A stretch of DNA of 64,000 nt from Gautieria morchelliformis (taxonomy: Eukaryota; Basidiomycota; Agaricomycetes; Gomphales; Gomphaceae), in assembly GCA_015179125.1 (NCBI GenBank), contig WHVA01000136.1, forward strand, positions 124,001 through 188,000, given 5' to 3'. A model generated the notes under the pieces. It did no database searches. It had not been told where the DNA came from and saw only the letters and a list, made by a program, of their open reading frames with translations. Positions 19,229 through 50,074 of this stretch are shown here, one piece after another. Made by a program: the position numbers and the translations under genes. Positions within the stretch are counted from its first letter, which is position 1, and the number at the start of each line of letters is the position of its first letter.

Positions 19229-22200
19229 TCAAACGCCCGACGACCTGGTACTCCTCCTTATCATTGTCTTCTTGGGAACGGTTCTGGCACCTCCGTCAGT
19301 ATGCGGCAGGATCTTTTTTTTCCCGGCGCCTCTGTCATCTCCCGACTCTGGGCCGTCAAACAGGGCGATGAGCTTCCTCTTCTCGGCTCTCTGACCCGGA
19401 TCTTCATAAATAACCCTCAAACTCGACTGCACCTCTTCCGAGAAAACACCACCTTTGTGCGGAGACAGGCTAGAGACGGGCGGAGATCCAGTCGCGAAAG
19501 ACAGTGCAGGCGACAGGCCACGCCCTGGTTCCAAATCCGTCTAAGCCATATGGGTATGAGATATGACAGCGAAAGGCGGATCATGACACATCAAGAAGCG
19601 TGCTCTCACCCTGGAAGGAGGTCGAGGTCTCTTGATAGGTCTACTTGAAGGTTTCTGTGGCCCGTCTGCTTCTTCTCTGACCTCCATGCTTCGCTTACCC
19701 AGCAACGCCGTGATAGCTGTCCGCAATCCCCTTGTCTCGCTGATGTGTGAAGTCATTGTGTTTGATTTGATCGGGACTTTGAGAGGTGAGGGTGAGTGTG
19801 ACGAAGGTATCTGAGTCGTCTGTTTGTCTTGCTCAATCTCCGCAGCCGATGGTCGTCGTGTGGTGTGATTAGGCTTTGGGGTCGTTGACGTAGGCCGTGG
19901 GGACTGGCCCGAAAGGGATAGAGGGGTGGACCCTAACGTGTTTGCCGCCCTCGAAGATTCGAGGGATGTGACAGACAGAAGGGCATTCGAACCAGGACCT
20001 GGATCGACAACGCGACTCGATAGAGTGGGGCACTTCGATAGCTTGGATGGTTCCTTACACTCGAGGGAGCTACCGGTTCGTGTCACAGGCTGCACCTCCT
20101 GCGAAGCTCCTCGAACCCGAGTCGGGAACATCAATTGAGAGAAAGCTGAGCATACGACGACCTCACCATTAGTGATGTCTATAATTGCCACCTCCCTCTC
20201 TTCTGTCTCTGTGGGGCCTTCCTTTCTCTTTCCTTCGATATCCATCTGCCGGCCGGTCCTGGCATCGATTAACATGGGAAAGTCTTGGCCTCTTCCATGG
20301 TCCACCTCGAGTTCCTGCGTTAGAGGTATCTTGCCACCAGTTGCAATCATGAATAGCCATTCCAAGCCTACGACGCTGACACCCCATTCTCTTGCCTTTT
20401 CGTACTTCGCACCACAACCTGAAGGACATACGAGATGGGTGGAGTGACGGGAAAATGTCAATGGTAGGTTTCCTCCTGCAAATCAAAGAGTTAAGCATAT
20501 CAATGTCATATATCAGATATATATGTTATATAACGGCATGCAAACAGATGGGAGACAGGGACTGAGCAGACGAGCGTTTTGACCATGTCAATCACAGGGC
20601 TTGGCCGCAACTGCCCAATATGCGCTTTAGAGAAAATTCAACAACTCACCAATAGCTCGCACCAAGCGTTTGGTCCAGCACGTTTGAGCAGAGTCCAACC
20701 CGGATAGGCTTATATGTAAGTTTTCAGCACCTAAAGGTGCAGTAGCTTCTCGTCAGTTTCTCACGACACGCTGAACGCGTCGACAGATGAATAGCGGTGG
20801 CAACACACCTTCGACTGGACAACTGATCTTGAGCGGAGTAAACGTGACATGTTCGTTGGGATCGCATATCCTTTCTTCAAAAATGCAGCGCTCAACCCAA
20901 CACTCAGTCCTATACTTTGCACGCTCATTCTCATCATCCTCTTCGCGCCAGAACATGCCACCACTGTCAAAAAGCTTCAGGAAGGCTGCCATTACAGAAA
21001 ATACAATGTTCACACCTGACAAGCCTTACGACAAAAAAATCTGCATCTTGATCCTCGTCTTCTGTGAGCCATTGAGCCCCAAGTTCTTCGAGTGCCTCGC
21101 GTAAAGTAGGCCCGTATGCCTCTCCAAACGCACGAAACTTATATCCAGTGAAGAGACGCGAGTCGCTTGACATTGAGGCCCTATTCGATGTCTGGGGGGC
21201 AACTGCAACGCCACATGAAGAGGAGACAATACGCCGGAACGGCTGGGGAGCGTGCTGGGGTGGGGAAGAGGACCGTGCGAACGACGCAGCGCGGTGATTC
21301 GAGAGGCGGGTCAATACGGAATTAGAGTCCGCATGAGTATCCGTCATCTGGTTCGAAGGTTTGATCCGTGGTTTGGGTCTGGGTATGTGGTCGGTTTGCG
21401 ACTTCAAGTTTGGGACTGTCGACGACGTCTGAGATTGTTCATGCCCAGAACTGTTATTTTTGGAGCAATGTGAACCCTCATCCGATTCAAAATAGCTGCG
21501 CTTTTGAACAATATGCTGAAATATACGCAGACCAATATCTCGTTGTTTGTAAGTCTGTCCATATTCTGAAGTGTCATCCCCGAGGAGTGTAGATGTGGGA
21601 ATGGAATATGGCAATGGCGTATGCTGGGAAAGGGTTGCAGTGGGAAGTTTGGAACTCTCGCCGATGGTTTCGGAGACTAATGAAATGCAACAATCAGCAT
21701 CTCAAATATTTGTCCTTCCGCAAGTACCTACTCTGTGAGACAAACTTGCGTGCTGGGCGCGCTTTCGTGATTTCATAACTAGATTCATCCCATCTACCTG
21801 TGAGATGTACATCAGTAAGGCCTTAATTGAATATTTCTACGCACCTCCAAATTCAATGCAGTCCCAGAACCATTCCTCCCATACGATACGAATCTGATCT
21901 GTCTGACTCTGTGTTCGATTATGATCTCGCGTCCACTTCAGCTTTGCACTAGTATCTGACACACAGCATAGCAGGTGTGTCGCAGTGGCATTGAGGGATT
22001 TAAGGTAGACACCACCTTCTTTCGCCAGCCACGCATGGACCTTATTGCGCAAGGCGATATCCTCCATCCCGGTAATACAGAGCTTGACGCCAGAGAAAAC
22101 AGGCAAGCGGTGGTCAGACATGGTCTGTCAAGCGGCTTCAGCAATTCCCTTACTGACGAAGAGGAAGGTTTTTTTGAGCTCGCCTGTTCAAGGTTGACGA

Positions 22201-22759
22201 CACCGCCGTTCAGCCAAGTGTGATAGGCCTCTTCCACCCATGTCGCTTTCAGAATTGGGAGATTCCGCTCGACGGCGCACTACGTTTTCTGTGAGAATTT
22301 ATACGACACCGCAGAGACGACAAGACAAGCCTTGTATTTAGCACTTCCAGGAGCATCAGCTATCAGGTGCGTGACCTTATCCGTGAAGTCATTGGATCTA
22401 ACTGCCCCCAGCTCTTGAGCGCGCGAGAACAGCGTACGCTACTGTGTCGTCAATCGCTGGATACGCTTACTTATGCGACTGGTGACTATTCACCTTGTCC
22501 AGGTCCCCTGAGGCACAAAGCACGATTCCATGAAACGGCTTGCCTCCTGCACTGAGGTCAACGGCATCGCCAGGAGCGTCATCTTCGCGCAAACCGACAC
22601 GTGGTACACTGGTCTGCCGTGATTTCGAGCTTGCGCTCGAGGCCTGTACCGGACGCAATTTGACGTTCGGTACCTGAACAGAAACAAAGTGGTAAGAAGA
22701 CGCTTCAGTATCGTAGCAAGTAATACCTTGACTGCACCACGGCGCTTGGAATTCTTCAT
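19229..22759 (-). CDS. Four-BRCT replication/checkpoint scaffold (Dpb11/Rad4/TopBP1-like)
   Basis: A nuclear scaffold protein of the Dpb11 (budding yeast), Rad4/Cut5 (fission yeast), TopBP1 family, which links phosphorylated replication and checkpoint factors to origin firing and ATR/Mec1 signalling. The start MKNSKRRGAVK splices in frame to VPNVKLRPVQ, a typical N-terminus. Four BRCT repeats are visible: FHGIVLCASGDLDK with VTHLIADAPGSAKY and WVEEAYHTWL; LPVFSGVKLCITGMEDIA with WEEWFWDCIEFGG; LFTGYKFRAFGEAYGP with YRTECWVERCIFEERICDP; and LHISLSGLDSAQTCWTKRLV with STHLVCPSGCGAKYEKAREW. A long basic/serine-rich region follows, and a last exon with SSLRVIYEDPGQRAEKRKL ends SSGV at 19,229. Introns are about 50 bp, except one of about 190 bp (near 20,475-20,660). 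It appears intact. Yeast Dpb11 also has four BRCT repeats, so the layout is complete. Confidence 0.9.
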
Positions 22760-23616
22760 AATCACGGTCGAGATGTTAGAGTCTATCCACTACCGACGCG
22801 TACACATGGACCTACAATATCGGAGAAAGTTCATACACCGACCTTTCGCGTTCACCTTCAAGTGCCTGCAGTGAGCTGCTACCCAACTTTGCTGCTAGTG
22901 CAGCTCAGTAAGATTGTATCTCCGGCTTCACTACTACAATGCATTGGACCGATCACCGCCTCTTTTTCGCGCTCTTGCACCCTCATAAATCATAATCTCA
23001 TAACCAGCCCTGAGAACCCCTGAGGCAGGCGGTACTTGGTGCATGCCACAGACTTATTCCCCAACCCTGCCATATCTCACTAGATATTGCCGATTTGGAT
23101 GCATCTTTGCAAGTTGGTGACGGTATGTACTCGCCCATAACTGAATAATATATACAATACAGAGCATTCATGTCCGTTCAGCCTAAACACAGCTACTTAT
23201 TGTCGTGACTCAAATATGAATCCGAGCTAGGACGATTAACTCGACTATATCGTACTCGAGCTCCACCTGGGGGCAGTATTTGTCCGCGGTATCAACGCGA
23301 AGGAGCGTGCACATCCCGAGGTGACGCCTGTTGGCGGCATGTGAACTGGAGACAATGTGTTCAGCTTAGCATTCGCTACATGCAAGATACAGCCCTCCTC
23401 AAGCACTAGTCCGGGACAATTCAAGTGACATATACACTTGGGGACAAAATCTCATACAGTTGACACTGGACTCATGGGTGCACGTGTTAAAGTAAGCATC
23501 ACCTCGTAACCTCGTATCCAAGCTCATGCACGAAAAGCTGATCAGTAGTCAGAGGCTCAGGTATAGATAAGATGTGGCATGTTACAGTAATAACGACTTG
23601 ATAAAAACACAGAATA
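22760..23616. other. Upstream region of the BRCT gene, nothing recognised
   Basis: This should contain the promoter of the Dpb11/Rad4-like gene. No gene, repeat or clear element is seen. Confidence 0.5.
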
Positions 23617-23733
23617 ATGGGCAATAAGTCTTCACCCTTCACCAAGAGAACCAATGGCCCAAAGCCACTCAACGATCAAGTTTACAAGGACCCTTCCAAA
23701 CCTACATACAAACTGGGTACTGGTAGAGAGTGA
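23617..23733 (+). CDS. Candidate 38-residue small protein
   Basis: A short open frame starting MGNKSSPFTKRTNG and ending YKLGTGRE. The Met-Gly-Asn-Lys-Ser-Ser start resembles an N-myristoylation signal. The composition is rich in Lys, Pro and Thr, unlike random translation. No homologue is recognised, and there is no direct evidence of expression. It could equally be the first exon of a longer gene or chance. Confidence 0.35.
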   Translation: MGNKSSPFTKRTNGPKPLNDQVYKDPSKPTYKLGTGRE

Positions 23734-23758
23734 CAGCCTGCGAAGCTTGTCTAGCCGA

Positions 23759-24146
23759 TCACGGAGAATTTCGTTCATAACGTCGACACTGTCGGAGAAC
23801 GAGGATCGAAATGCTCTCTGATGAGCTCTCCCATAGGTGATTCATCAAAATCATTAGTGTCCTTATTCTCGAGCTAATCCAAATATGAGGAACGGGTATA
23901 CTCACTGGGATTAGCAGCCTGGACGTCTTCTCGGGGTTCATACTGTTGCTCAAAACCGAATAGGTCCTGCCGCAATGTTCGTCGCCCATCCTTATCAACA
24001 AGACGTTGGCCAACATTCGAATTGAGGTGGGCGAAACTTCCGAATCCCCTACCCGAAATTAAAGAACGATGGCATACGGCCTGGTCAGATGCTACTGTAA
24101 GCCACTGCGGTATTGGGTTGTCAGCATAGCATGATGGCTCTGACAT
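23759..24146 (-). CDS. Unidentified two-exon ORF
   Basis: The first exon begins MSEPSCYADNPIPQWL and includes GRGFGSFAHLNSNVGQRLVD and QQYEPREDVQAANP. A GTGAGT donor follows, and after a short intron the frame continues as DTNDFDESPMGELIREHFD before a stop near 23,785. Splice sites and composition look coding, but I recognise no family. It ends close to the MFS fragment at 24,363 and could itself be a truncated gene. Confidence 0.4.
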
Positions 24147-24362
24147 ATATCACGGACAGACATGAGTGTTATAAAGGTGCAATTTTTTGGCTATGAAGAA
24201 CAATCCGGTGCCACATATATTGCCTGTAAGAAATTATATATAACAAATGTCTACATATGCATGATGGATATATATATGGCGCCCACCAACGTCGAGCAAG
24301 AGCTATCAAAGCTGGTACAGCTCTGATATTGTACCCAACCTACGCTAGCTGTCACGACGGCA

Positions 24363-24722
24363 GTCGACTCCCTCGTGTTCTTCGCGAACAGGTGGGCTCC
24401 CCGAGCTCTAGCAAGTGTGCACGGGTCGCCTTTTCTGCGCTGAATTTCTGTCATAGAAGATCGTCACATGAACCCGCGATGCCATGGTTTGTTTGTCTTG
24501 CGCACCTGCGACTAGACTAGTATCTCAAGTTCGAGGTGGGTGTTAGCCGTTGAAGAAACAACTTCGGACTCAGCTCAGAAGCATAGATGAGCAATGAGCA
24601 TATAAGATGTAAAGTGATCAATCGAGAGTCGTCTTTTAAGGCAGATGGGCTGCATTATTGTCCAGCTTGCTATGGTCATTGGTTATCCACGCCACTAAGT
24701 ATGGGGCGTATCCCGGTCTTCT
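24363..24722 (-). pseudogene. MFS transporter 5' fragment (copy D)
   Basis: The upstream region and first ~30 codons of the MFS transporter found whole at 38,948 and 52,703. On the minus strand the flank (TTAGTGGCGTGGATAACC, AAAGACGACTCTCG, AAGTTGTTTCTTCAAC) matches the 5' flanks of those genes. The coding start ATGACAGAAATTCAGCGC lacks three bases present in the others and shifts frame. Homology stops exactly at GTCGAC (24,368-24,363), inside exon 1. The remaining part of an MFS gene beginning at the equivalent GTCAAC lies at 34,670. It therefore looks like the detached 5' half of copy A, or of its tandem neighbour. Confidence 0.8.
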
Positions 24723-25286
24723 TCATTTCATAGTAAATCGTTTGCCGTGAGGACATATTTCGTGCCTGATGTAGCGCGCCAATAGCTTTGAATCCACAAG
24801 CGTGCTATAAGCGGAGTTTGAATGTATGACCACATCGGACAGCGTCTCAAGGATGACCGCCTCCTTCTTTAGGGTCGGATTCCGCATAAATTTGATATTA
24901 AAGATCAATTAATTAATACAGTAAAATTTCATGGACATCTGACTGGACAAGGCCTCAAGCTCCCGCTGACACCGAGCATGTAAACGAGGCTTCCATGAAG
25001 GAGAACCGAGATCCTTTGGATAATTCTGTGCAGCAACCCCGGGTGTACAGAGAACTCTTCGTCCTTTCAGACTCCCAGATATTTGAATGCACGACGGCTG
25101 AGCTGTACTAGATGGTGAACACCTGGAGGTGCAGACCTTGAACTGGCGAATAACAGAGACTCGACTCCATGTCACGAAACCACAGAAGATAAGACTGGAC
25201 TGGGGATGACACGACACCACTCAGACCCCTCCGAGTGGTCAAGGGCCATCATTACCTTTGGCTGCATATGGTTGTTGTCTTGGTCG

Positions 25287-26710
25287 CTATCCCTGAACTA
25301 TTCCGTGGGTGCCAATGATGAGAACTCTGCCCGTTGGCTTGCCTGTCGCATTGTTTCCTCTGATAATTGTATCATTTGTCATGACTAAAGGTTGCTTCGA
25401 GGAAAACTTACCAACGCCAAGGAGATCATATTGAGCTACGATGCCGTTCGATGGCTGTTGTGCCTCCTTGCCCTTCTTCGTCTTCTTAGATGGCCTCGGG
25501 CCGGGGGTCTCCGTCTCCGAATACACCCACAAGCGGACCTATGGCAGAAAAATGAGCATAGCAAGACAAAGTGGTTAACTCTCGGAGGCATACAGGACCC
25601 AGACCATGGTACCCAGCCGTGGTGAATTGAGTGTAGCGGCCCAACGTCTGTCTGATGAGCTTCTAGAAACAAGAATGAGCTATCAGTACCAAGACACTCG
25701 TGATCCTGAGTCCCCAGCTTCTGCAATCAGAACTGATAGAAACGACACATATGCCGAGCGAAGGCTGAAACAAAGATGAAGATAACTCACAGTTCTCACC
25801 GTTGTGCATAATGGGAAACGCTTTTGGAGCACGATAGATATGTCCATGACAGTCAGCGTTTTAACTGGCGATCCTAATATAGCCGTCTGGATGGCGTGAT
25901 GCCATCTACATGGCAAATTCCTTGTGGTGTTCCTAGCACCAGGCAAGGAGTTGGGGCCCTGTCGCTCGCATTCATCAACGGCCGCGGCTACACAAGCGAA
26001 GCGTGAGTAGTAGCCAGCATATGAATACTTGGTACGCGTACGATCCATCCCATCGAACGCGGCCTGCAAGTGTGCCGGGTAGTACTCCCGATTTTGGAAA
26101 CGTGGTGGGGTGTCTGCTATCAAACAGGTAGGGGATGAGGATTAATATGATCAATGATTCGCATAGGAAGTCTACCTTCGTCAGCAAAAGCAATGAACCC
26201 GGCCTGGCAAAGTTGCGGGTAATACACCCGATTTTGTAAAAGTTGTCGGTGGTCTGCTATCAAACAGGTAGGGGATGAGCATGAATATCATGAATCACAT
26301 AGGGAGCCCACCTTCCTCAGCACGAGCATGGAGCTCGCTTGGGCTGTTGGGTGCCACATGAGGCATCTCCTGTGATGTACGAGTCGTCTCGTACAGATGG
26401 AAATGTGGGTGGTGACAAAATGCTTTATAGCCACGTGGGGGTGGCAGATATCGTGAACTGATATCCAATTTGTCGTTCACCGAAGGCCGATGGGGACGCA
26501 GGTCCTGATGAGTCTAGTGCGAGTAAGCAGTAGATTAGAAAGTTTCTGAACGTCACAAAAACGCAGAAAATAAAAAAGTGAAGGTGCAGAGACCGCAGCA
26601 TAGTATAGACCATGGATGCCACACAGGTGTTGCATCAGGAGGCACCAGGCTACGCTGGAGTTCAAGATGTACAGGTAATCAGTGTGTATACTTACCGATG
26701 CTGGAAGCAT
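25287..26710 (-). CDS. Putative fork-head-like (winged-helix) protein, left copy
   Basis: A multi-exon gene starting MLPAS (ATG at 26,710-26,708) and spliced in frame to DLRPHRPSVNDKLDISSRYL and HHPHFHLYETTRTSQEMP. Two similar small exons follow, each preceded by an intron ending CTGTTTGATAG: QNRVYYPQLCQAGF and QNREYYPAHLQAAF. The next part has RTRTKYSYAGYYSRFACVAA and then WHHAIQTAILGSPVKTLTVM with VLQKRFPLC. That last block matches the first helices of a fork-head domain in spacing (AILGSP, LT, RFP). Later exons (LIRQTLGRYTQF, a K/R-rich part) are less certain. The left copy stays open where the right copy has a stop. The family call is tentative; gene structure is moderately secure. Confidence 0.5.
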
Positions 26711-27689
26711 TTTAGAGGAGGAGGAGAGGTGGAGGAATGGGAGTGGGGTATGGATGGATGGCTGAAAGAAAGGTGCCGAATTATATAACATTCCATCTGG
26801 GCGGCACTGACGGACCTTGTAATTTGAGAGCGCTGATAGCCATCGCGTAAATGAATGCGCACATTCCAGGAAGCATCGGAGAACGATTTTGAGACCTGAT
26901 TTGGGTTAGACGTGATCAACAGACATTCCGATGCACGGCCGCGAGTGCCTTGAGGTACATTCCCCCAAACATTCTGAGATGCGACATTTGCGGAAGAAAG
27001 TGAATCGCATGTGAATCGCACACTCCTGAAACACAGTATAACTTTGTAGAAGACGTCCATATATGGTGCTCCAAGCCATCCCCCGAGATGTACGATCACT
27101 AGCAACGTCAGCCTTTAAAAACAGTGGCACTGATGAGTAAAGCACTTATGCAAAACATAGCACCAACAATGGCTCAAATTGTGGTTGTTATTTTCATTGT
27201 TACTGAAGCTCGCATAGAGTCACGGTTGTGTCACGGGTACAAACCGACCGCAAATCTCTTCCACCTCGATTCGCTTAGAAATTAGCCATCCCTAGACGCG
27301 CTTCAAGTACAGTGTGATGATCTATCTCCCCCTAATCACTTCGGTTTATCAGCGCACATTTCGACCTGGGAAAGACTGGGTGTAGAACAGCGCTCACCGC
27401 TTTCTGCAAGGATAATACAGTGAAAGGTAAGTTTCACATACCGCTGCCTTGCAGTGTTTGAAACGCTCATGATGTGCCTCACGTCAGCCTTGAATCCATG
27501 GCTGGAGGAACGCGTACATCATCTAACTCAACATACATACGACTATACCAGACGCGGGATGCTCGCCTGCAATCCGAGTGCGTCGTTCTGTGCTTACACA
27601 GCGGACGCACCTTGGGTCTAGGTCAAAACGGCCTCGCCGATGACGGGTTGGAGGCATTGAGTCCGATCCACGATTGAAACCTACATGAA

Positions 27690-28375
27690 ATAGTATGTCG
27701 ACTTACTTCCATCTTTTGTCCGTCGAGTGGCTGACGACAGAATAGATCTCTGCGCGCGAGACAGCCAGTCACGATCACAGGACAGTGCGCAATGGCCGAC
27801 CGAGTTGTGGATGCCGTCAATGCGAGACAGGAACTGGCGGGGACGGGTTTGGAAGTTGGGAGAGATTATTTATCATGAAAATAACAAGGAATAAATAGGC
27901 ATAGTGTCCCACACATGATGATCGGGCTGCGGGGTATGATCAGTAAACAGGTATGTGAATTAGCTTCACCTATAGTCCGCTGAATACCTGACCGACAGGA
28001 TACATCTCTACACGCGAGACAGCCAGTAACGATCCCATGACATTGTGCAATGGCCATCCTAGTTGTGTCAATGGGAGACATAAACCGGCGGAGACGTCCT
28101 TAGTGATTATTTGCCATAAAATCACAAGGAATAAATAGGCATAGTGTCCTGCACTTGCTGATCGGGGCACCGGGATATGATCAGTAGACAAGTATGTCAA
28201 TTAGTCTCACCTATTGTCCGCCGAGTACCTGACCGACAGTATAGATCTCTACACGCGAGACAACCGGTGACGATCTTAGGACATTGTGCAATCGCCAACC
28301 CAGTTGTGCAGTCACCGCGAGACGTAAACCGGCGGAGATTGTTTACCATGAAAATGACAAGGAAAAAATAGGGTG
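27690..28375. repeat. ~245-bp tandem repeat, three units (left arm)
   Basis: About three head-to-tail units of about 241 bp. Each contains GGAATAAATAGG (27,889 and 28,130, altered at 28,362), a TATGATCAGTA block, CTGACCGACAG and CGCGAGACA. The same family in the right arm has four units. No coding sense is apparent. Confidence 0.85.
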
Positions 28376-28849
28376 ACTGTGCAAGACATCGACGGAAGAC
28401 TTGCTTCCTTCTTCCTTCGTTGAAAGGTCTAAGATTGGTATTACTTACCTCGTTGGACCAGCCTATCGACTGACCGTTGACCAGCAGCGTCGAAGTTCCT
28501 GACGAGTGCCCTCCATGCCTGCCGAAGACTCCCTCCGATATCATTGGTTGAAGGGTCGACTACTTTCAAGTAGATATGCATGGCCGACACGCACCACCTT
28601 TACTTGCAGCTTGTGCGCAGTGCGCTAAGTGAAACCGGCAACCATCGGATCCGTAGCAGGAGTAGGAGCCTCATACGATGGCGGGACAGTTGAGTCACTC
28701 GAAGCCCCGAGAGCTGGAAGAGAGCCAGACAGTGGTAGTTATTGCGCTGACTTGTCTCTCGCCTGTTTTGGTCACCGATCATGGCCGCGCGATATGCGCA
28801 GGGTCATTATGTAACTGTCTTGGCCGATGTGCACCTACCTCACCTTCCA

Positions 28850-31800
28850 ATATAAAGATTTGATCAAGAAATACAAACAATCCGCATCTTGATGCGTGGG
28901 TGCTCCATCTCATTTCTTTGCGTTTGTACGCTGACAGACCTATTTGCCAGTATCATCCGTATCTCCTCGTCGCTCGTCCTACCGCATACCCGCGAACACT
29001 ATCTCACCATGTTCATTATCATCGTCACCACCACCACCAGATGATCTATACATTGCGTGCCGCCATACACTTTACAACGCTGCCTTTCCAGCAGGCTAGA
29101 AGATGTCAGGCATGAGTTGGCGGCAACAGGTTGTCAAAGGGACTTCAGCAGCTCCGCCCCCAGTCTCCTTTCGCCGCCGCAAACCGGTACAGCCGGGCCT
29201 TGGATGAAACAGCGTCGGAAGGACCACTACCCATGCCTACCCCCGCACCAGGGCGTGAAATGGAGGCGCAGCATGGTGCGAAGATTCTGCTCCCGCAAGG
29301 CATACCCGAGACAAAATGTGACGCGCGTTCAGCACGGGAAGCCAGGGTGGAATCACGACTTCTGTAGTCGCATTATGGGCTTCCATGGCGCAAGATGGGG
29401 ATAAAAGTGACCGGTTTAAGCCTCCCGCCAAACCGGTCACTAGGACGCTGTTACAACCCCTGAGTTCTTAGGTGTGGCAAAGCTAAAACTTATCGCTCCA
29501 TGCACCCGAGAAAGACCGACACCTACAAACGAAAACGCGGCCACAGGGCCATCTTTAATGTCGGATCCTCGCCAGCCTGCGAATCTGGTCAGTTCAGCAT
29601 CGGTCCCTGCTTCTATTGGTCGTGTCACGCTAGATCTATCGAGCACTGCGTCGCTGACTCGCCCTCCTTTAACACCTTGCCAAGTGGAGCCGCCTTTCTT
29701 AGCTCAACCTCAGCTCGTCCCTTTCAGGGGCTTCATCGGATAAAGTTACTCCGGTCTTGCCGCAACACATGGCTTTGGGGCATGCTAGGCTTAAGACTTG
29801 ATCAAGAAATATTAACAGTCTTCATCGTGACACGTGGACGCTATCCATCTCATTTCTCTGCGTTTGTGTGCTCATCATCTTGAACACTTATACTCTAGTG
29901 TCCTACGTATCTCCTAGACGCTTGTCCTATCGCATGCCACCAGCTATCACCAACACTATCTCGCCATGTTCATCATCATCATCATATCACCACCACCACA
30001 TGATCTCTACATAGCTTATGGCCATAAACATTTATAACGCTGCCTTTCCAGCAGTCTAGAAGATGTCAGGCATGAGCTGAACAGGTCGTCCATGACAGAC
30101 TTCAGCAGCGCCTGCCGTGTCACCGAAGGCTCTGCCCCAGGTCTCCGTTTGCTGCCGCAAAGTACCGCCTTTGGCCGAGACAGTGTCAGAGGAAACACTA
30201 TCCATGCTTACCCCCACACCAGAGCCTGAAAAGGAGGCGCAGCACTCTGCGAAGATTCTGCTTCTGCAAGGCATACCCGAGACAAAATATGATATGCGTT
30301 CAGCAAGGGGAAGCAGGGGTTGAAATCTAGCCGCATTGTGGGCTTCCATGGTGCACGATGGGGATAGAAGTGACAGGTTTAATCCTCCGCCTAACCCGAT
30401 CACCAGGGCGGCTGCTACAACCTCTGGGTTCTTACGTGGGGCAAAGCTAAAACCTACCGCTCCATGCAGTTGAGAAAGACCGACCCCTACAAACGAAAAC
30501 GCGGCCACAGGGCCATCTTTAATGTCAGAGCCTCGCCAGCCTGCGAATCTGGTCAGTTCAGCATCGGTCCCTGCTTCTATTGGTCGTCTCACACTAGATC
30601 TATGTTCAGCATCGGTCCCTGCTTCTATTGGTCGTCTCACACTAGATCTATCGAGTACTGCGTCGCTGGCTCGCCCTCCTTCAACACCTTGCCAAGAGTG
30701 GAGCCGCCTTTATTAGCTCAACCTCAGCTCGTCCTTTTCAGAGTATTCATCCAATGAAGTGACCCCGGTCTTCCCGCAATACATGGCTTTTGCGCCATCT
30801 AGACTTAAAGACTTGATCAAGAAATATCAACAATCTCATCTTGGCACCTGGACGCTCTCTTTTCTCATTTCTCTGCATTTGTACGCTCATCACCTTCCAC
30901 ACCTATCTCCAACTGTCATACGTGTCTCGTAATCGCTTGTTCTGCCGCATACCACAAGCTATCGCTAACGCTATCTCGCCATGTTCATTATCATCATCAT
31001 CACCGCCACCACCACATGATCTAATCACTGCTTACGGCCATATACATCTGTAACGTTGCCTTCCCAGCAGGCAGGAGTTGAACAGGTTGTTCCAAGAAAC
31101 ACTTCAGCCACCCGTGCTTCGTCAGCGAAGGCTCCGTCCGCTCCCAGTCTCTTTTCGCCGCCACAAACCGGCACCGCCATTGGACGAGACAGCATCAGAG
31201 GAAACACTATCCATGCCAACCCCCGCACCAGAGCATGCAAAGGAGGCGCAGCATTCTGCGAAGATCCCGCTTCCGGAAGGCATACCCAGACAAAATATGA
31301 CATGCGTTCAGCAAGGCAGCTGGGGTGAAATCGCAACTTCTCTAGCCGCATTATGGGCTTCCATGACGCAAGATGGTGATGGAGGTGACCAGTTTAATCC
31401 TCCGGCAAACCAATCACCAGGGCGGCTGTTACAACCCCCTGGTTCTTAGGTGGAGCAAAGCTAAAACCTATCGCTCCATGCACTGGAGAAAGACCGACAC
31501 CTACAACGAAAACGCGGTCACGTCTATCTATAAGGTCGGAGCCTCGCCGGCCTGCCAATTTGGTCAGTTCGGCATCGGTCCCTGCTGGTATTGTTCCGTC
31601 TCACGCTAGACCTTACCTGTCGACTATTGCGTCGCTTGCTTCCCCTCCTCCAACAAGTGGAGCCTCCTTTCTTAGCTCAACCTCAGCTCGTCCCTTTCAG
31701 AGGATTCGTTCAATAAAGTTACCCCGGCTGGGACACGGCTTTTGCACAAGCTAGGCTTAAAGGCTTGATCAGGAAATAACAATCTTCATCGTGAGACGTG

Positions 31801-32030
31801 GACACCTTCCATATGTGCTCTCATCATCGTTGTATACTTATTTCCCAGTGTCATACGCATCTCCTAGCTGTCGCTTGTTCTACTACACATACCAACAAGT
31901 TATCGCAAACACTACCTCGCCATGTTTATCATAATAATCATCACCGCCATCTGATCCACGGCCATACACATCTATACTTAAATCTGCCTTTCCAGCAGTC
32001 TCTAAGATGTCAGGCATGAGTTAAAGGTTG
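28850..32030 (+). repeat. Tandem array of arrestin 3'-end copies (left arm)
   Basis: A partial unit (28,850-29,103) and three full units of about 930-1,010 bp, bounded at about 29,103, 30,063, 31,072 and 32,006 by GATGTCAGGCATGAG or its variants. Each unit equals 55,520-56,489 of the parental locus: the last ~240 arrestin codons (from about PSPVSFRRRKPVPPLDETAS), the stop, the 3' flank and the edge of the MFS 3' end. Frames are broken and no promoter or arrestin domain is attached. The second unit has an extra 48-bp direct duplication at 30,556-30,651. Confidence 0.88.
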
Positions 32031-34670
32031 TTAAAGAGAGACTATGGAGAAACTTGCTTCAATGGGTGATAAGAACATCAACTTGATGGAGGCTGCGACG
32101 AGGAACAGTGATGCTGCAACAAAGACAGGTACGGAAGTATTGAGATCTCCACAGGTGGCAACTGCGATGTTAACCAATGAGAAGAAAACAGTTGAAGCTG
32201 TCCAAATGCACGAACTGATAGGCGCCATAAGTCCGGTAACCCTGTCAAGTGTCTCGAATTCGAACGCCGAACACATTGGGAAGTCGAGATGAAGAACGCA
32301 CCGGTTAAAAGCAGAGCAGGCGGCATCAGCGGTATCACTAGAAATTTGCTGTTCACAAAAACATGTCCTGCAGTTCACATATACGGCTACCGGTGAGGAA
32401 CGGGAAATACTTCGGGCATAGCTTCATTCACCAGCACAATATTAGTCTCAGAAGTTGACCAAAAGATTCTCAACAAATCACTCACCACGCCGTACATCTG
32501 TATCGTTATGGTTTAGCTCTTACTGTGGTACATGAGTTTAAAGAGCAACACACGGCATTCCTATCGAAACAAGTTAGTATGCACAGTGTAGTAAAGAGCA
32601 GGAGGAAGGTCTCTACCCACTGTGTCAAACTTGTTACACAAGCATATTCTAAGACCCCAGCCTGATTTGTCGCAGTAGTGAACAGAAACAAGAATGCCTG
32701 TCAGTGCTGTAAAGGTCGACATAGCAAACTTGCGACCACCAAAGGAGAATCGGCCTTTACGTGTCCAATCCACCATCCAGCATGCGATAAGCGAACCTGG
32801 TATGGCAAGTACAGAGATGATACTATAGTTACTAGATGCGGGGTATGTGTGACAATCCATCCACTCGTTGATAAACTGCGGCGTCGAACATACCGATAAG
32901 TTCCGTTGACGCCCAGCCCGGATGAGACGGAGTGGTGGCTCAGATAAATGGGTAAAAAATTATACAGCGGGTATGCGAGTCCAATCAATCTTGAGTAGTC
33001 ATCAACCCCCATCCTAGGAGAACATGCCCGCAGTTCGTGAAACCTTACCCCCAAGCCAGATGGTAATGGTAGAATTAACCGCGAGGCGTCTCGTTGCGAA
33101 TAATGGCATGATCATATGTGAAGTACGCAGGTCCTTTAGCCGCCAACGGAAGCAAGCAAGGAGATGACCTATAGAGCGACGTCCCTCTCAGGGCGCGCCT
33201 GAACAACTGAGCAGAACTCAATGGTACAGGGGTCGTTTCACCGGATATGGCCTGAAGTTTCTCAAGCGTGAGCGTGATTGTCCTGCCGTTCTTCTTTGCT
33301 ACCCGTTGGAGAACCCGTGATAGACCAATTACACAATGGGTTAAGGCCCTATACTGGGGACAACAGAACGCACAGCGATTGCCTCTTCGTCCTGGCCTTT
33401 GGCGAGGAGGTACTTGGATGACTCCTGAAGATTAAAAATGAAATAACGGCAAATAAACATAAGAAGTGTTATCCCGCCCCTTCAGAACCGACGATTGTTA
33501 TGTGAACATCGTTATCTACCCTTGCAGCATATGTAAGCACATACATAGTGAAACTGTAGGCAGCATTAGTAGGACGACCAAGAAATTATATTCACACGAC
33601 TATTCGAATTTTGGGATACGTACGAGGTATATCTCCAGCCATTGTTCTGCGCTCGCGGACACGTGCCAAGTCAGGTCGTGTCGGGACACCAAAAGTTGGC
33701 GATGAATACCCAGCCAACACAGAGGGTAGGGTTAGTGTCACTATATCGGTCTTCAGTATGGTTCCGATGGTAATCATAGTACAACCCACCTGGTATCGCT
33801 GAGGAATGTGTTCCAAGTACAAGGCGCCTGCCATTAACTTAGCAGACAAGGAAAAGAAAGGTCTAGATGTATCATTGCATACCATCTACCAGTAAACTAA
33901 CATTGATTAGAATTCGTTAGTGTGATACTAAAGGCTCTTAAATATATAGTTGCTCACTTTCCACCAACGCCAAAGCCACAGCATGCGACGAAAGCGCCCA
34001 GTGCGGCGAAATTGGGTGTTCCGCCTGCTGCGATACCGAATACCCCAGCAATTAATAGAGTGATCTACACATAATAATTTCTAGACAAGAGTGCGAAATT
34101 TGATGTTTGGGTTTACGGACAGTCCAAGAAAACTTCCGGCCAATGATATCAGCTAGAACGCCCTGGTGGACCAAGGGAAAGCAAGATATCAATACATAGA
34201 TCTTTCCATGGTGAATGGAAGGGGAATACACAAGTTGTTGCACCACAGATTACTAGCCCACATAAAGTGCAAGGGGTGGATTCATTTCCAACGCGATTTG
34301 GGGAAGAACTATGGCGACTCCTAGACATAGCTGTTAAAAGTCATCTCTTCGCGCATTGAATTATTGGCACCCTGTAACCAGATATCTGTGCAGTGTATGA
34401 TGGTCAATAACATCAGGGAAACGATAGAACAAGTGAGGAGGGCTCGGGTCTGTCAGCCGCCCACCCAAAGCCAGAAACGATGAACAATATCTCCCCAATC
34501 CAATTTCTGCACACGCGCAGAGCTAGGGTTCAACGGGACAAACTTACTCAGTGCACACTGCAAACAGTGGCTCACTGCCCCGGATTATGTCATGTACGTT
34601 AGTAACGTACATGACGAAGACTCGGTACAAACTCACCGAACTCGCGCTTCAGCTCGTAAATCTTGTTGAC
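32031..34670 (-). pseudogene. MFS transporter (SVOP-like), copy A, 5'-truncated
   Basis: The body of the same 12-helix major-facilitator gene as copies B and C. Exons visible on the minus strand include KIYELKREFG, IWLQG, the LEHIPQRYQ exon, GRFSFGGRKFA, TALTG and a final exon ending MFLSPIEASFSIVSL at 32,031. It lacks the promoter and first ~30 codons; homology begins at GTCAAC, 34,670. The GT donor after the RRALRGTSL exon (near 33,180) is changed to CT. A 27-bp palindrome sits in its first intron. It probably makes no full transporter. Confidence 0.82.
34589..34615. repeat. 27-bp perfect palindrome in MFS copy A intron
   Basis: GTCATGTACGTTA and its exact complement surround one central G. 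The equivalent intron of copy B has only half of it (ATGTACGTTA near 39,100), so the second half was added in copy A. Confidence 0.9.
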
Positions 34671-35289
34671 AGTGACGACGCCGCGTTTACTTTCCGTTGA
34701 TGGTCAAGCCACTAAGTCAAGCTTTTCTGAAGCCAGGCAACATGTTGTTTAGTTCAGCCAAATCACTGCTAGTGAGTCAAGCTTCAAGCTTCATGCAGGC
34801 TCAACTGAATCGAAGTCTCTGGTGGATTGGAGTCAATCTAAATATGCTCATTGCAAATAGTTTGGCTACACCGGGCAAACTTAGACGCCAAAGGTACTTG
34901 CTGTGCCCATATATATAGGCATTCTTCCGATGTGCCCGTTCGTAACGTACTACCGTGTGAATGGCTTCAATGCCATTCCCAATCCGACGGAGAGACAATG
35001 CATAGCAATCTTCGTATGCTTTTATGTTACATAGGATGAGCTTGGTTCAATGGTTATTACAGTAAACCAGAAGAACCGGGCGCGATCTCTTTGTGATTGG
35101 TAAAGGCCTGATACACTGCAGCTCACGCACATCAGCAGTACTAACAACGCCCGACATCTTCATGATGTTCGGATCTTGCGGCCTGGGCTTCCTGGAATAT
35201 ATAAATATGTGGTAACCAGTTATTAACCACTCTGTTCTAAGTGCCCACTCTTACGTCGATTTCAGTAACAATAGAATTTCAAGTTGCCC
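34671..35289. other. Spacer between inverted arms, left part
   Basis: Single-copy sequence between the arm border and the small conserved gene. It contains two copies of AGTCAAGCTT (about 34,713 and 34,773) but no recognised gene. Confidence 0.5.
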
Positions 35290-36004
35290 ATGGGTGCACT
35301 CACAAACCGCTATGAGGATGATGTAGGTGCTCAGTAGTGCATTATATATTAGTACAAGTGTATTGTGTTGACAACCTTCTTCTGCTCAGGATGCATACCA
35401 TCTCCCGCCAGGAATGACGCGCGTTGGTTATGACGAGAGGACGGAAAGATACACGTTCCGCCAGGGAGATGAGTTATGGCTGGGAGAATCGGGTTCGCTT
35501 TACGGTGGAAAAATGAAATGGGCAGGGAAGGCACCAGACGCCAGTCCTCCAAGTGACGAGGATTACGATACGGATAGCTCTGGAGTGAGCAAAGATGGCA
35601 GTACGTTCCTAGTGCCGTAACCTTGGGGTGCTTAATATTGAAGCCACTCCACAGAAGTCTCCAAGAAAGTTGCTACAGGTATCCACAATGGCGGCTTTAC
35701 GACACTTCCGTACTTGCAAGAGAGCAAGAACGAGTGGGGTGTACCAGTCGCTTCCATCTCTGACACCGGTGCAAAGCCTCCTGATACATCATTGGGACGA
35801 AGAGGAACTCAGTTGAAGAAAGTGGCTCAGTCGACGGTAACTGCCCTCGGTGTTACTCGGCGATGGTCTAGAAAGAAAGTACCTTCAAGGGATGGGGATG
35901 TGGATGGGGAGAAACAGTCTGGTCAAAGAAGTGATAAGAAGGAATTCAGCCTGGAAGATGACAGTTTTGCAGAGAAGGCTCTCCCAGTTCGGCCTGAGGA
36001 TTGA
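35290..36004 (+). CDS. Conserved fungal small protein, LysM-protein-like N-terminus
   Basis: Four exons (35,290-35,322, 35,390-35,600, 35,655-35,678, 35,721-36,004) join in frame to 183 residues. The N-terminus MGALTNRYEDD, then DAYHLPPGMTRVGYDERTERY and LWLGESGSLYGG, resembles a group of fungal proteins often annotated with LysM/CBM50. I cannot see a clear LysM repeat here, so binding of chitin should not be assumed. The rest is polar, basic and probably disordered. No signal peptide is seen. Introns are 67, 54 and 42 bp with GT...AG ends. It is single copy and lies between the two inverted arms. Confidence 0.7.
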
Positions 36005-36952
36005 ATGGAAGCTATGTTGTCGGCAAACGGGATATATACCCAGGTTAGTTTTCCTGTGCAGCCCTGCATGGACTCTTGTATTTTATTTTGCGCCTTCCAC
36101 GTAACATTCCCGTGCAGACGCGGCACCTTTTATCTAAATCATTGACTGGTACCCATTAAACATGTAATACGTGATATATCTTTCTAACATGTATTAATAG
36201 AAAGAAATAGCCGCAGAAACATGTACAGACTGGATTCACAGGATAGAACCGAATCATTTCTGTAATGCATGTGCCAGTGCTGGCCTCAAGGAGCTGCATG
36301 TATCAATTAATTAACGTTGATGCTGCGCTGATCTGAACACTCCACGAGAATTACCCTCCGATCCAGTCTCATCATTTAATCAACCTAACAGTGAGCTGAG
36401 ACGCACAGAGGACATGACAACTGATACAATCTCGGATCGATATGATCATCCCAGAAGAATGCGAAACTTGGGTCGAGCTAGGTTGACTGTGAAAATTCGA
36501 GACGATGTGAAACGGCTCGTTTCGCTCCGTAGTGCTAACCCAGGCAGGCATCGTCCCCGTAAATGCGTCCTGGTTATCACCTTGCCAATCCTTGAGGAAG
36601 CAAGGTTTGGATTTACGCGGACAATTAAAATGCCAGTGGAATGATTAGTTGCTCATTGGAACGGGCACACCTCCGAGCATATTCGTAAGTGCAGCCAAGA
36701 GGGTACACGGCCGAATGATGTACCGAAATAAGTAGTAATGATGAAAGGTTGCGTTAACTTGAATAGTACCCTAAGTTGGAATGAGTGATTGATGAGGGTC
36801 TGCATTGGCTAGTATAAGATCAATTGACACGTCAAAGTACCCACGGAAAGCCTATCCTTGACGTGAGGAATGAGCTGGTTACGCCTATTACTAACTGGTG
36901 CTCTGAGATAGCTCGATCGAAACAAAGAAAACAGAAGTCTGACAAGGCATCC
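36005..36952. other. Convergent intergenic region, nothing recognised
   Basis: Between the ends of the small protein gene and GET4. Short frames only, and no repeats shared with the arms. Confidence 0.55.
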
Positions 36953-38228
36953 TCAATCAAGACCAACTCCCCCGGCAGGACTCAGAGTTCTTGGCTGTGC
37001 TGATCCTGCACCACCAAACAATGATGAGAGCATATCCTGCAAGGGATTAGCAGCTTGTCCACGTGGTAGAGGAATGCTGAAATAAAGGTGTGCGAGCTCC
37101 GATAGCGCCTTCAAACATGGACAGCGTGAGCTGGTGCGTTCTAAAAGTGACAATTTCGAACCTTGCGCATTGGGGGGCTCGCCATTAGCCCACCCTTCGA
37201 CTGATAAGTACCGCAGAGTCGTACCCAAGCCTCTCTGACTGTCTTGTTTTTCTCGCCTTGGGCACGCTGACATGTTCGAATTGCAAGCTGTAGGAAATTC
37301 AGAACCTGGTCTTTTGTAAAAAGGATTTCATCTGATGTGGAGCCAACTTGGAGAGGGACCGTTTCAGCCAAAACTTCAGGGTGGGAGGATATAAGGTGGG
37401 AAAGAAAATGGGAGAGAAACGTCCGGGCGGCGAGAATATTGCCTTCAAGTAGGTAGCTGAAGGGAGCAGGTTGAGTTGGGTGGCACTAAAAGAGGGCCAA
37501 GACGCACGCACGGAATTACGCCCCTAGAGGCATATAATCCAAAATCAGAAGCACCATTCGACCAGTCAAGGAGTAGATCCGCTAAAAGACGGGCACTGTC
37601 ACGTTTTCCCGCGGCCAGTAAATGAAGTTCAGCAAGCTCAAAGGAACCATCTTTATGGGCTTCAAATTAGCTGCGCTAGAATAATATAACGAATGAAGGT
37701 CATGCCTTTATATAGGATCTCTCCAGCATAGTGGTGCATTTCCGGATCGCCTGCTGGACAAGGCCCATGCTTCGCAGACCAACTGTTTTCCACTTTTTAA
37801 GGGACGTAACAATCTCGGGAGAAAACACAGCTGACGAGATGCATTTATCAATTAAAGTTTTCCTCCAAGATCCACCTGAACCGGTTAATGCGATTAATTG
37901 CGTCAAACGTCCTATCATCCAGGTCAAGTTGGTACACTCTTACTCCGCACAAGATATTCTGACCTCGAGACTCCTCAGTAACGGCTTCATTTTTACTGTC
38001 ATAAACTTCAAGTAGAAATCCTCCAAGGTCCGTTCCACTGCCTTGTTGACCTGCCTTGAGCAACTCTCTGGCCGACTGAAAGAGCACGTCTATCGCCACA
38101 TCGTACTGACCCGCCTTCGCGTAGCGCGAGGCAAACGTTCTGGCTTTTTGGTGAGCTTCGTATGGCGCGGTAGCAATCTGAGGGAGGATCGCGGCTAAAG
38201 CTCGTGACGAGGAGGGTGCTGGAGGCAT
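36953..38228 (-). CDS. GET4: GET4, tail-anchored protein insertion factor
   Basis: Cytosolic Get4 forms a complex with Get5 that passes tail-anchored membrane proteins from Sgt2 to Get3 for ER insertion. Six exons join in frame on the minus strand. They include APYEAHQKARTFASRYAKAG, AIDVLFQSARELLKAGQQGS, RLTQLIALTGSGGSWRKTL, WSAKHGPCPAGDPEMHHYAG, AELHLLAAGKRDSARLLADL, LEGNILAARTFLSHFLSHL, VGSTSDEILFTKDQVLNFLQ, VREAWVRLCGTYQSKGG and ALSELAHLYFSIPLPRGQAA. The C-terminus DMLSSLFGG...GVGLD is the typical end of basidiomycete Get4. The start is ATG 38,228-38,226 (MPPAPSSSRALAAILPQ). One intron after EILYK appears to use a GC donor. There is no damage. The gene is single copy between the inverted arms. 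Confidence 0.93.
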
Positions 38229-38664
38229 TATGAAGGCGCGTGACTGGTGACACGTGACGTTTCTAAGTCTGGTGTTCACAGCGAATTTCAGAGTTCCTGA
38301 GGTCCAGACAACATGGAAATTTTTCATAAAAAGTGGGTTTTTACACAGGCTCGCATCTAATGAGTTTGACCCAACTTATAGACCAGTCGCAATCAGCGAA
38401 CGCCGAAGTACAACGGTCTAATCAGGGCTACGGGCTCGTCGGGCTCCACGGTCAATATAATGTATTCCTTGAGATACATTATCGGTCGCTATTTTTTCTC
38501 AGGGTCTCTCCTCAGCCGATGCGAAATCGGGCAATTTTTCGGACCGATGTCGTCATATATTCAATCTCCGCTTTGCTTCACTATTACTATCGGTAACTCG
38601 GTTACTTGCCTCTCTTCTTGCGTTTATCAGAAACGAAATATGCCTGTGGTCATCAAACTTACTG

Positions 38665-38947
38665 AGTAACGAAGAAGACTGCAATTCAGATGAAGCCCCA
38701 TACTTAGCGGTTTGGATCAATTAGCAGGCTAGACAGTAGTACAATGCCGCCTACTAGTATGTGCTCTAAAAAGACGACCCTCGATTGATCATTTTAATTT
38801 TTATGGGTTCATCTATGCTTCCGGCTAAGTCCGAAGTTGTTTCTTCAACAGTCAACCCCCACCTCGAACTCGAGATAGGTGCGCGAGACAAATGAGGCAT
38901 CGCATCCTCGCATCATGTGACGATCTTCTTCTGCGCAGCCTTTTCAC
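38665..38947 (+). promoter_or_regulatory. Shared 5' flank of MFS copy B
   Basis: This flank is recognisably homologous to 52,425-52,702 (copy C) and to the reverse of 24,430-24,722 (copy D). Conserved blocks include CATACTTAG, AAAGACGAC with CTCGATTGATCA, GTTGTTTCTTCAAC, and CATGTGACGATCTTCTTC just before the start. Conservation across three copies marks the likely promoter, but no specific factor site can be named. GET4 starts about 430 bp further left in the divergent direction. Confidence 0.5.
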
Positions 38948-41740
38948 ATGACAGAGAAATTCAACACAGAAAAGGTGACCGGTGCACACTCACTAGAACT
39001 CGGGGATCCTACCTTCGTTCGTGAAGAAAACGAGGGAGTCGACAAGATTTACGAGCTGAAGAGCGAGTTGGGTCAGTCCCTTTGTACCGAGTCCCCGTTA
39101 TGTACGTTAATCTGGGGGGCACCAGTGAACCACTGTTTGCAGACTGAGTAAGTTGGCTTTCTGGCCAAAAGTAGCTTGTCCGTTGAACCCTAGCTCTGCG
39201 GGTGTGAAGAATTGGATGGGGGAGATACCAGACGGAATTATTCATTGTTTCTGGCTTTGGGTGGGCGGCTGACAGTTCGTCCTCCCTTGTTCTCTCGTTT
39301 TCCTGATGTTCTTGACCATCATACACTGCACAGATATCTGGTTACAAGGTGCGTTTCCAATAATTCAACGCACGAAGCGATGACTTTTAACAGCTACCTG
39401 CCTTACGTCTAGGAGTCGCCATAATTCTTCCCCAAATCGCGTTGGAAATGAATCCACCCCATATCGCATTTGCTACCCTTGCGCTTTATGTGGGCCTAAT
39501 CTGTGGTGCAACAACATGGGTATTCCCCTTCCATTCGTCATAGATGTACATATTGACATCTTACTTTCCCTTGGTCCACCAGGGCGTTCTAGCTGATATC
39601 ATTGGCCGGAAGTTGTCTTGGACTGTCCGTAAACTCAAACATAAATTTCGTACTCTTATTTTCAAATATTATATATAGATCACCCTATTAATTGCTGGGG
39701 TATTCGGTGTTGCAGCAGGTGGGGCACCCAATTTCGTCACACTTGGCGCTCTCGTCGCATGCTGTGGCTTTGGTGTTGGTGGAAAGTGAGCAACTATATA
39801 TTTAAGAGCCTCGAGTATAGCACTTATGAATTCTAATCAATGTTAGCTTACCGGTAGATGGTAATGATACATCCAGACTTTTTTTTTCCTTGTCTGCTAA
39901 CTTAGTGACAGGCGCCTTATACTTGGAACACATTCCTCAGCGATACCAGGTGGGTTGTACTATGATTTACCATCAGAACCGCACTGAAGACCGATATAGT
40001 GGACACTCACCCTACTCTCTGTATGGTGGGCTGTTGGTCAGCTCATTGCTTCTCTTGTTGGCTGGGTATTCATCGCCAACTTTTCGTGTCCCGACACGAC
40101 CATACCTGGCACATGTCCGCGAGCGCAGAACAACGGCTGGAGGTACACCTTGTACGTATCCCCAAGAGTTCAATATTCATATCAATATATCATACGGCCG
40201 TCCTACTAATGCTCCCCACAGCTTCACTCTGTATGTGCTTACATATGGTGTTGTACAGATAACGATATTCACATAACATTCGTTGGATCTGCAGCGGGGG
40301 GATAACACTTCTTATGTTTATTTGCCGTTATTTCATTTTTAATCTTCAGGAGTCATCCAAGTACCTTCTTGCCAAAGGTCGGGACGAAGAGGCAATCGCT
40401 GTGCGTTCTGTTGTCCCCAGTACTGGGCCTTAGCCCATTGCGTAACTTGCCTATCACAGGTTCTCCAACGGGTAGCAAAGAAGAACGGCAGGACAATCAC
40501 GCTCACGCTTGAGAAACTTCAGGCCATATCCGGTGGAACGCCCCCTGTACCTTTGAGTTCTGCTCAGTTATTCAGGCGCGCCCTGCAAGGGATGTCGCTG
40601 TATGGATTGTTTTCTTGCTTGCTTCCGTTGGCCGCTAAAGAACTTGCGTAGTTCGCATATCAAACCATTATTCGCAACGAGACGCCTCGCGGTTAATTCT
40701 ACCATTACCATCTGGCTTTGGGGGTAAGATTTCACGAACCGCATACCTGTTCTCCTAGGATGGGGATTGATGACTACTCAAGATTGATTGGACTCGCATA
40801 CCCGCTGTATAACGCATTTTTACCCATTTATCTGAGCCACCACTCCGTCTCATCCGGGCTGGGCGTCAACGGAACTTATCGGTATGTTCGACGCCGCAGT
40901 TTATCAACGAGTGGATGGATTGTCACACATACCCCGCATCTAGTAACTATAGTATCATCTCTGTACTTGCCATACCAGGTTCGCTTATCGCATGCTGGAT
41001 GGTGGATTGGACACGTAAAGGCCGATTCTCCTTTGGTGGTCGCAAGTTTGCTATGGCGACCTCTACAGCATTGACAGGAATTTTCTTGTTTCTTTTCACT
41101 ACTGCGACAAATCAGACTGGGGTCCTAGCATATTCTTGTGTAACAAGTTTGACACAGTGCGTAGAGACCTTCCTTCCTCCTGCTCTTTATTACACCGTGC
41201 ATACTAACTTGTTTCGATAGGAATGCCGTGTGTTGCTCTTTACATTGATGTACCACAGTAAGAGCTAAACAATAACGATACAGATGTACGGCGTGGTTAG
41301 TAATTTATAATCTTTTGGTCAATTTCTGAGACTAATATTGTGTTGGTGAATGAAGTTGTATGCGTACACGCCCGAAGTATTTCCCGCTCCTCACCGGTAG
41401 GCGTATATGCAAACTGCAGGATCATGTTTTTGTGAATAGCAAATTTCTAGTGGTACCGCTGATGCGGTCTGCTCTGCCTTCAACCGGTGCGTTTTTCATC
41501 TCTGAGTTCCCACGGTGTTCGTCGTTCAAATTCGAAACACTTTACAGGGTTACCGGGCTTATGGCACCAATCAGTTCGTGCTTTTAGACAGCTTCAACTG
41601 TTTTATTCTCATTGGTTCACATCGCAGTTGCCACCTATGGAGATCTCAATACTTCCGTGCCTGTCTTTGTTGCAGCATCATTGTTCCTCGTTGCAGCTTC
41701 CTTGATGCTCTTCCTACCCATTGAAGCAAGTATCTCCTAA
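38948..41740 (+). CDS. MFS transporter (SVOP/SV2-like), copy B
   Basis: A plasma-membrane-type major facilitator with about 12 helices; substrate unknown. Exons in order: MTEKFNTEKVTGAHSLELGD with VDKIYELKSELG; YQTELFIVSGFGWAAD; VAIILPQIALEMNPPHIAFA and YVGLICGATTW; GVLADIIGRKLSWTV, the helix 2-3 loop signature; AGVFGVAAGGAPNFVTLGAL; GALYLEHIPQRYQ; WAVGQLIASLVGWVFIANFS; SSKYLLAKGRDEEAIAV; RTITLTLEKLQAISGGTPP; SIISVLAIPGSLIACWMVDW; RKFAMATSTALTGIFLFLFT; and a last exon ending MLFLPIEASIS at 41,740. Around a dozen short introns separate them. I saw no certain disruption, though not every border could be proved. Next to it lies the array of arrestin tails. Confidence 0.8.
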
Positions 41741-45224: not shown

Positions 45225-46150
45225 TTTCTTTGTCATTTTCATGGTAAATAATCTCTGCCGGTTTACGTCTCGCGGCGACTGCACAACTAGGTTGGCGATT
45301 GCACAATGTCCTAAGATCGTCACCGGTTGTCTCGCGTGTAGAGATCTATACTGTCGGTCAGGTACTCGGCGGACAATAGGTGAGACTAATTGACATACTT
45401 GTCTACTGATCATATCCCGGTGCCCCAATCAGCAAGTGCAGGACACTATGCCTATTTATTCCTTGTGATTTTATGGCAAATAATCACTAAGGACGTCTCC
45501 GCCGGTTTACGTCTCCCATTGACGGCACAACTAGGATGGCCATTGCACAATGTCATGGGATCGTTACTGGCTGTCTCGGGTGTAGAGATGTATCCTGTCG
45601 GTCAGATACTCGGCGGACTATAGGTGAAGCTAATTCACATACCTGTTTACTGATCATATCCCGCCGCCCGATCCTCATGTGCAGTACACTATGCCTATTT
45701 ATTCCTTGTCCTTATCATGGCAAATAATCTCTCCCAACTTCCCAGCACGTCACCGCCAGTTTACGTCTCACGTAGACGTGATCCACAACTTGGTCGACCA
45801 TTGCACACTATTCTGAGACCATGACCGGATGTCTCGCGCACAGAGATCTACTCTGTCGTCAGACTCGGCGGACAACAGGTGAAACTAATTGACATACCTG
45901 TCTACTGATCATATCCCGCCGCCCGATCATCATGTGCGGGACACTATGCCTATTTATTCCTTGTTATTTTCATGACAAATAATCTCTCCCAACTTCCAAA
46001 CCCATCCCTGCCAGTTCATATCTCACATTGACGGCATCCACAACTCGGTCGGCCATTGCACACTGTCCTGTGATCGTGACCGGCTGTCTCGCGCGCAGAG
46101 ATCTATTCTGTCGTCAGCCACTCGACGGACAAAAGATGGAAGTAAGTTGA
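45225..46150. repeat. ~245-bp tandem repeat, four units (right arm)
   Basis: Four units of about 240-256 bp, each closing with CACTATGCCTATTTATTCC (ends at about 45,463, 45,704 and 45,960), preceded by TGATCATATCCC and CTCGGCGGACAA. The third unit has no separate counterpart in the left arm. Confidence 0.88.
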
Positions 46151-50067: not shown

Positions 50068-50074
50068 TTGGGGC

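Follow-up and report, generated by a model that had tools for sequence, protein, structure and literature searches.

A transporter-like gene split at one hexamer, its halves at opposite ends of an inverted repeat unit beside a tandem array

The window analysed here is a 64-kb stretch (C156:124001-188000) of a 122-Mb assembly in 1113 contigs, and its layout was established by comparing the window with itself (+ strand; E 1e-10). In order, it presents a unique segment (L); a segment bounded by gene halves (X, 24363-34670); a single-copy spacer (S); a copy of a repeated gene (MFS C); the body of a repeat unit; about 3.4 kb of extra sequence; a second copy of the gene (MFS B); and a long ORF (G). 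In what follows, p and q are the parts of the MFS gene before and after a particular hexamer, and R is the unit body. The features are these:

24363-24722, minus strand: D, the 5' part (p) of the split MFS, starting from GTCGAC (24363-24368); homologous to B 52798-52425 and C 39043-38758, the match to B extending to about 24750
24363-24430, minus strand: C-like patch adjoining the cut, with a switch to B-like sequence at 24430-24438 (diagnostic sites, permutation, two-state model)
25049-28731, unstranded: core of the unit, a dispersed repeat family; 88.6-91.3% to 48740-44842
28853-32020, plus strand: repeats in which the 3' part of the 919-aa ORF recurs in degenerate form (self-comparison, genome search)
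32031-34670, minus strand: A, the other part (q) of the split MFS, whose end is GTTGAC (34665-34670); C-like for the most part but B-like at 33497-33860
34671-38757, unstranded: S, single-copy spacer with a GET4-like gene (pieces at 37144-38375, minus strand); its one genome match is itself
38758-41837, plus strand: MFS copy C, unsplit (self-comparison, genome search, diagnostic sites)
42121 to about 48740-49032, unstranded: unit body between C and B, the counterpart of 25049-32020 (self-comparison)
50065-51089, unstranded: inside the B-C unit, what is probably left of one more unit; a fragment of the 919-aa ORF followed by pieces of the core element, mostly in unit order
52425-55538, plus strand: MFS copy B, unsplit (self-comparison, genome search, diagnostic sites)
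55773-58547, minus strand: G, the 919-aa ORF (924 aa from stop to stop); the unit fragments resemble its 3' part

The repeated gene is a putative, transporter-like one, and the name MFS is in part presumptive, from sequence motifs. One exon-like piece (54018-54203) gave sub-threshold matches to Sugar_tr (PF00083, E 0.014), TIGR00898 (E 0.0036) and PcaK (E 0.069); the other MFS pieces scanned matched no transporter profile, and a PDB search with two MFS pieces returned nothing. The GET4-like gene in S is better marked (PF04190, E 2e-12 and 7.5e-12). Pieces of genes for a twin-BRCT protein and an aspartyl protease also lie in the window, and such genes in pieces suggest a eukaryotic genome, probably that of a fungus and perhaps of a basidiomycete. 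The window also has 84 near-perfect copies of the 7-base ACATAAC at 1760-2351. The 919-aa ORF is without a Pfam match at E 0.01. Its region has 13 genome matches, 12 on its own contig and one of 34 bases on contig C753; the many degenerate fragments in the units correspond to its 3' part alone, starting at about base 2112 of the query, and G is taken as their putative source.

The core of the unit belongs to a dispersed family: a search with 24700-28700 gave 42 candidate places, counting the window itself, of which 40 were scored and contain 168 matching pieces. The family is internally repeated, with many places on contigs C626, C870, C512 and C328. No coding family was found for the core: two open stretches near the end of family copies had no Pfam match, and of ten open stretches taken from its loci five had none either, while the other five matched reverse transcriptase, RNase H, NACHT, RA and F-box-like domains, most of them in neighbouring sequence. 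A tandem repeat of about 250 bp is present in 2.0 copies in X (27864-28338) and 3.5 copies in the B-C unit (45282-46155).

By self-comparison and alignment, X duplicates one repeat unit in inverted and diverged form. Its counterpart is the unit that runs from MFS C to MFS B: both of these read p q, and X is the reverse complement of the sequence from the C hexamer to the B hexamer, minus 3.4 kb. The window thus reads L, -p -R -q, S, p q R p q, G. X lies 4.1 kb from the source array, and X and the C-B unit form large inverted repeats flanking S. The first-pass annotation had described X as exactly one unit, with its two gene halves in the same orientation. The ends of X do enclose one unit by homology, but its length is 10.3 kb against 13.76 kb for the B-C unit, which has about 3.4 kb more (49032-52396); and D and A do share an orientation, but X as a whole is inverted relative to B and C.

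The remnant at 50065-51089 suggests that the array may have been longer in the past. Within it, 50065-50543 matches 42608-43093 (84.9%) and 50543-51088 then matches pieces of 46872-47597; the short stretch 50913-50976 is reversed relative to the core. This remnant lies between 209-bp direct repeats (49858-50066 and 51854-52053).

One transporter-like gene is split, its halves lying at opposite ends of X. In three-way alignments D starts at GTCGAC (24363-24368) and A ends at GTTGAC (34665-34670), and both ends lie opposite one and the same GTCGAC, at 52793-52798 in B and 39038-39043 in C, within the stretch EGVDKIYELKSEL, which reads identically in the two copies. Similarity ceases outside both ends of X, and the breakpoints agree to one 6-bp overlap; the earlier claim that both halves were cut at the equivalent hexamer is borne out, at the same base position within 6 bp. 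A hand estimate puts the chance that two independent breakpoints in a 13.76-kb cycle coincide this closely at about 1/1000. The copy starts and ends at one point of the donor cycle (hexamer 24363 / 34665), as a permuted duplication would. A hexamer at both ends is to be expected from a staggered cut with fill-in, or from a hexamer that pre-existed at the target. The ACGACG reported beside each junction is present (24354-24359 and 34675-34680) but is weak evidence for a target duplication or microhomology, because, among 100,000 flank pairs drawn at random, 2.0% had a 6-mer in common within 15 x 15 bases.

The flanks are single-copy. In a genome search that passes over simple repeats and very common words, L (21000-24362) and S (34671-38757) each have one match, themselves, and the first 501 bases of X have three, all within the window. 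A transposon residing in the MFS gene, with a 6-bp target duplication and with copies flanking X, was considered and ruled out: L and S are single-copy, and neither is seen in the self-comparison at E 1e-10. When 22300-24362 was joined to 34671-36700 in silico, no disrupted gene spanning the L|S empty site was found; two open stretches longer than 30 aa cross the join, of 33 aa and 52 aa. Four short ORFs in the flanks (35642-36001, 36321-36641, 35352-35672 and 21941-22279) are without a Pfam match at E 1, and no RNA families were found at gathering threshold.

Copy A has five genome matches: itself, C, B and two short fragments on other contigs. One of these, C335:15041-15532, matches 33686-34176 of A over 492 bp at 95% identity; it seems to have left X after X arose, because it has A's deletion of about 34 bp, which is absent from B and C. 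The other, C425:63164-63655, is an MFS 3'-end fragment, 77% identical to 32030-32517.

The split gene is a mosaic of B-like and C-like sequence. Diagnostic sites were counted after removing alignment columns with a gap in B, C or X, and those in which X agreed with neither of the other two. For the first 67 bp or so past the cut, D is C-like at 11/16 sites; over the next 260 bp or so it is B-like at 44/52 (C-like at 8/52). The best single change point in D has a permutation p of 0.002 (5000 shuffles, sites taken as independent). A two-state model, with an error rate of 0.18 and a switch rate of 0.01 both chosen by the analyst, puts the switch at 24430-24438, the same block under three alignment settings; in the shorter stretch of D to which it was applied, 25/31 sites past the switch are B-like. 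Copy A is C-like at 237/314 sites, with one B-like block in the same model (33497-33860, 27/32 sites). On its own the patch in D, 11 C against 5 B, falls short of significance (one-sided about 0.1, by hand), and B may have evolved fast there: the B-C distance is 0.307 in the patch, as against 0.15-0.22 in most other blocks. Across A's B-like block it is only 0.092, and that block suggests that conversion-like exchange may occur here too.

Distances (K2P, to the nearer of B and C) are similar throughout X, at 0.07-0.12, with 0.14-0.16 in the short patch of D. The patch is 0.143 from C and 0.253 from B over 70 bases, or 0.164 and 0.293 over 62 bases; past it, D is 0.083-0.097 from B. The two values for R are 0.115 and 0.070. 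The outer part of A is 0.078 from C and the inner part 0.112; at 33430-33724, A is 0.095 from B and 0.154 from C, and its B-like block overall is 0.067-0.095 from B. These values roughly fit a single separation time for the whole unit, with a hybrid MFS that would have been intact when cut.

The source of X was probably a unit with one intact B/C hybrid MFS, formed by exchange between B-like and C-like copies and then cut once; the mosaic make-up of both D and A, together with the similar distances to the nearer partner, points this way. The join within the hybrid is not at the cut site. Because the switch in D lies 67-75 bp away from the cut, the gene was probably hybrid before it was broken.

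One account locates the whole history in the array itself. It supposes that X derives from a three-unit array in which a hybrid middle copy, MFS2, was cut by an inversion, S then being turned by a repeat-mediated flip; this is the favoured account, held tentatively and at somewhat short of an even chance. The starting array, at its native place, would have read L-S-MFS1-R-MFS2-R-MFS3-G, with MFS2 having become a B/C hybrid through unequal crossing-over; a first inversion, with its ends at the L|S border and inside the MFS2 hexamer GT[C/T]GAC, would have split MFS2 and placed S between large inverted repeats; these repeats would then have recombined and turned S back, to give the present order. 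The former adjacency of L and S is part of this proposal, and S does look like the native neighbour of C, because C's homology to the other copies stops at 38758, at the border with S.

On paper two inversions suffice. In a breadth-first search over inversions, the present order lies at reversal distance 2 from an assumed L S pqRpqRpq G, with content conserved. The numbered path (invert S up to the middle hexamer, then flip between inverted repeats) yields the present order; the search also printed another two-step path, whose first step inverts S and the first p, and both are possible, so that the sequence of events given above would be one of two. Inversions that split genes at their breakpoints are well known, and repeat-mediated flips of segments between inverted repeats are frequent; a literature search on flip frequency turned up another rearrangement only. 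A blunt join would not put the hexamer at both ends of X, and this account calls for a staggered break with fill-in or for a hexamer present beforehand at the target.

A second account supposes that recombination between MFS copies freed a unit-length circle with a hybrid MFS, and that this circle, once cut within the hexamer, joined the chromosome between L and S through microhomology or through a staggered cut that was filled in. The common hexamer at both ends of X is what such an event would leave; the mosaic MFS, with its join away from the cut, is what a circle made by homologous recombination would carry; and permuted duplications by way of circles have been described in yeast and human. 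The C-to-B switch at 24430-24438 could serve as the closure junction, but unequal crossing-over or conversion would give the same, and the hybrid arises equally as the middle copy of a three-unit array. The target is only 4.1 kb from the source, a coincidence of about 7e-5 if insertion were uniform over 122 Mb (by hand). A single such insertion was found, since A's matches come down to the three window copies and the two short fragments; no insertion at unlinked or several sites appeared, nor any other long copy among the matches listed.

The costs of the two accounts differ. Local inversion requires the array to have held three copies and to have been inverted twice; the circle takes one excision and one insertion, but also a third copy or a sister chromatid, because two intact MFS copies remain in the array. 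Inversion predicts both the reversed orientation and the 4.1-kb distance; re-insertion only allows them. Local inversion is ranked slightly above the circle, whose re-insertion, proposed in the first-pass annotation, is possible but on balance doubtful: one unit opened inside one MFS and breakpoints within 6 bp stand from that proposal, and the hybrid gene fits it, but inversions reach the same order. Its most specific form, in which a unit circle was closed by homologous recombination of MFS copies diverged by about 15% (the scar being 24430-24438, 67-75 bp from the cut) and used one 6-bp match to re-enter the chromosome at a distance of 4 kb from its source, is if anything a shade more doubtful. 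If this form were true, the closing and opening points of a natural eccDNA re-insertion would both be legible in one probably fungal genome.

Template switching during break repair (MMBIR or gap repair) is unlikely. Here a broken end of L would pair at the hexamer of one MFS copy, copy one unit, leave the template at the corresponding hexamer of the next MFS and be joined to S, which accounts for an inverted local duplication with the same 6-bp microhomology at both ends; but a straight copy from the B hexamer to the C hexamer makes all of D B-like, and its first 67 bp are C-like, so that template switching would require one more switch, a conversion afterwards or a template array with more units. 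It is very improbable that a larger inverted array lost sequence in two independent deletions ending at one site (a formerly longer array is the one point in favour, with no direct evidence, and the 6-bp coincidence is about 1/1000, by hand) or that the assembly is at fault, a duplicated-contig artefact being disfavoured because X differs from its nearest partner at about 7-11% of ungapped bases over the longer stretches compared.

Both candidate events, an old local inversion and a circle re-insertion, are of known kinds, and nothing here lies outside known rearrangements. What is new is the mosaic nature of the split gene: diagnostic sites can separate the closing point of a moved unit, by homologous exchange, from its cutting point, at the hexamer. 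A caution follows for other loci, that identical breakpoints at both ends of a unit do not alone prove a circle, as an array cut and rearranged by two inversions looks the same.

Inversions with staggered breaks leave small duplications and split genes at their breakpoints. X resembles them in having gene halves at two breakpoints and a short duplication at the cut, and differs in that its halves bound one unit of a tandem array, so that a second, repeat-mediated flip is needed.

Three described cases resemble the circle account. A Zygosaccharomyces bailii segment in wine yeast is, like X, a fungal genome segment in circularly permuted order, from which its authors infer passage through a circle (PMC3053389); as described there, its several copies lie at separate sites, were opened at different points and show little if any similarity at the breakpoints, whereas X is one copy beside its source with a 6-bp hexamer. 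Human segmental duplications by way of circular intermediates share with X an altered block order and short microhomologies at junctions, where indels are also described (PMC7450558); in the five resolved cases given, however, closure homology is at most 2 bp and acceptors are distant, whereas X would have been closed by MFS homology and its acceptor is 4.1 kb away. Human eccDNA-mediated duplications share the single cut point, the circle being cut once and reintegrated in permuted order (PMC7188851); the account of these events gives no evidence of insertion with local homology, and the donor there was apparently not a tandem array.
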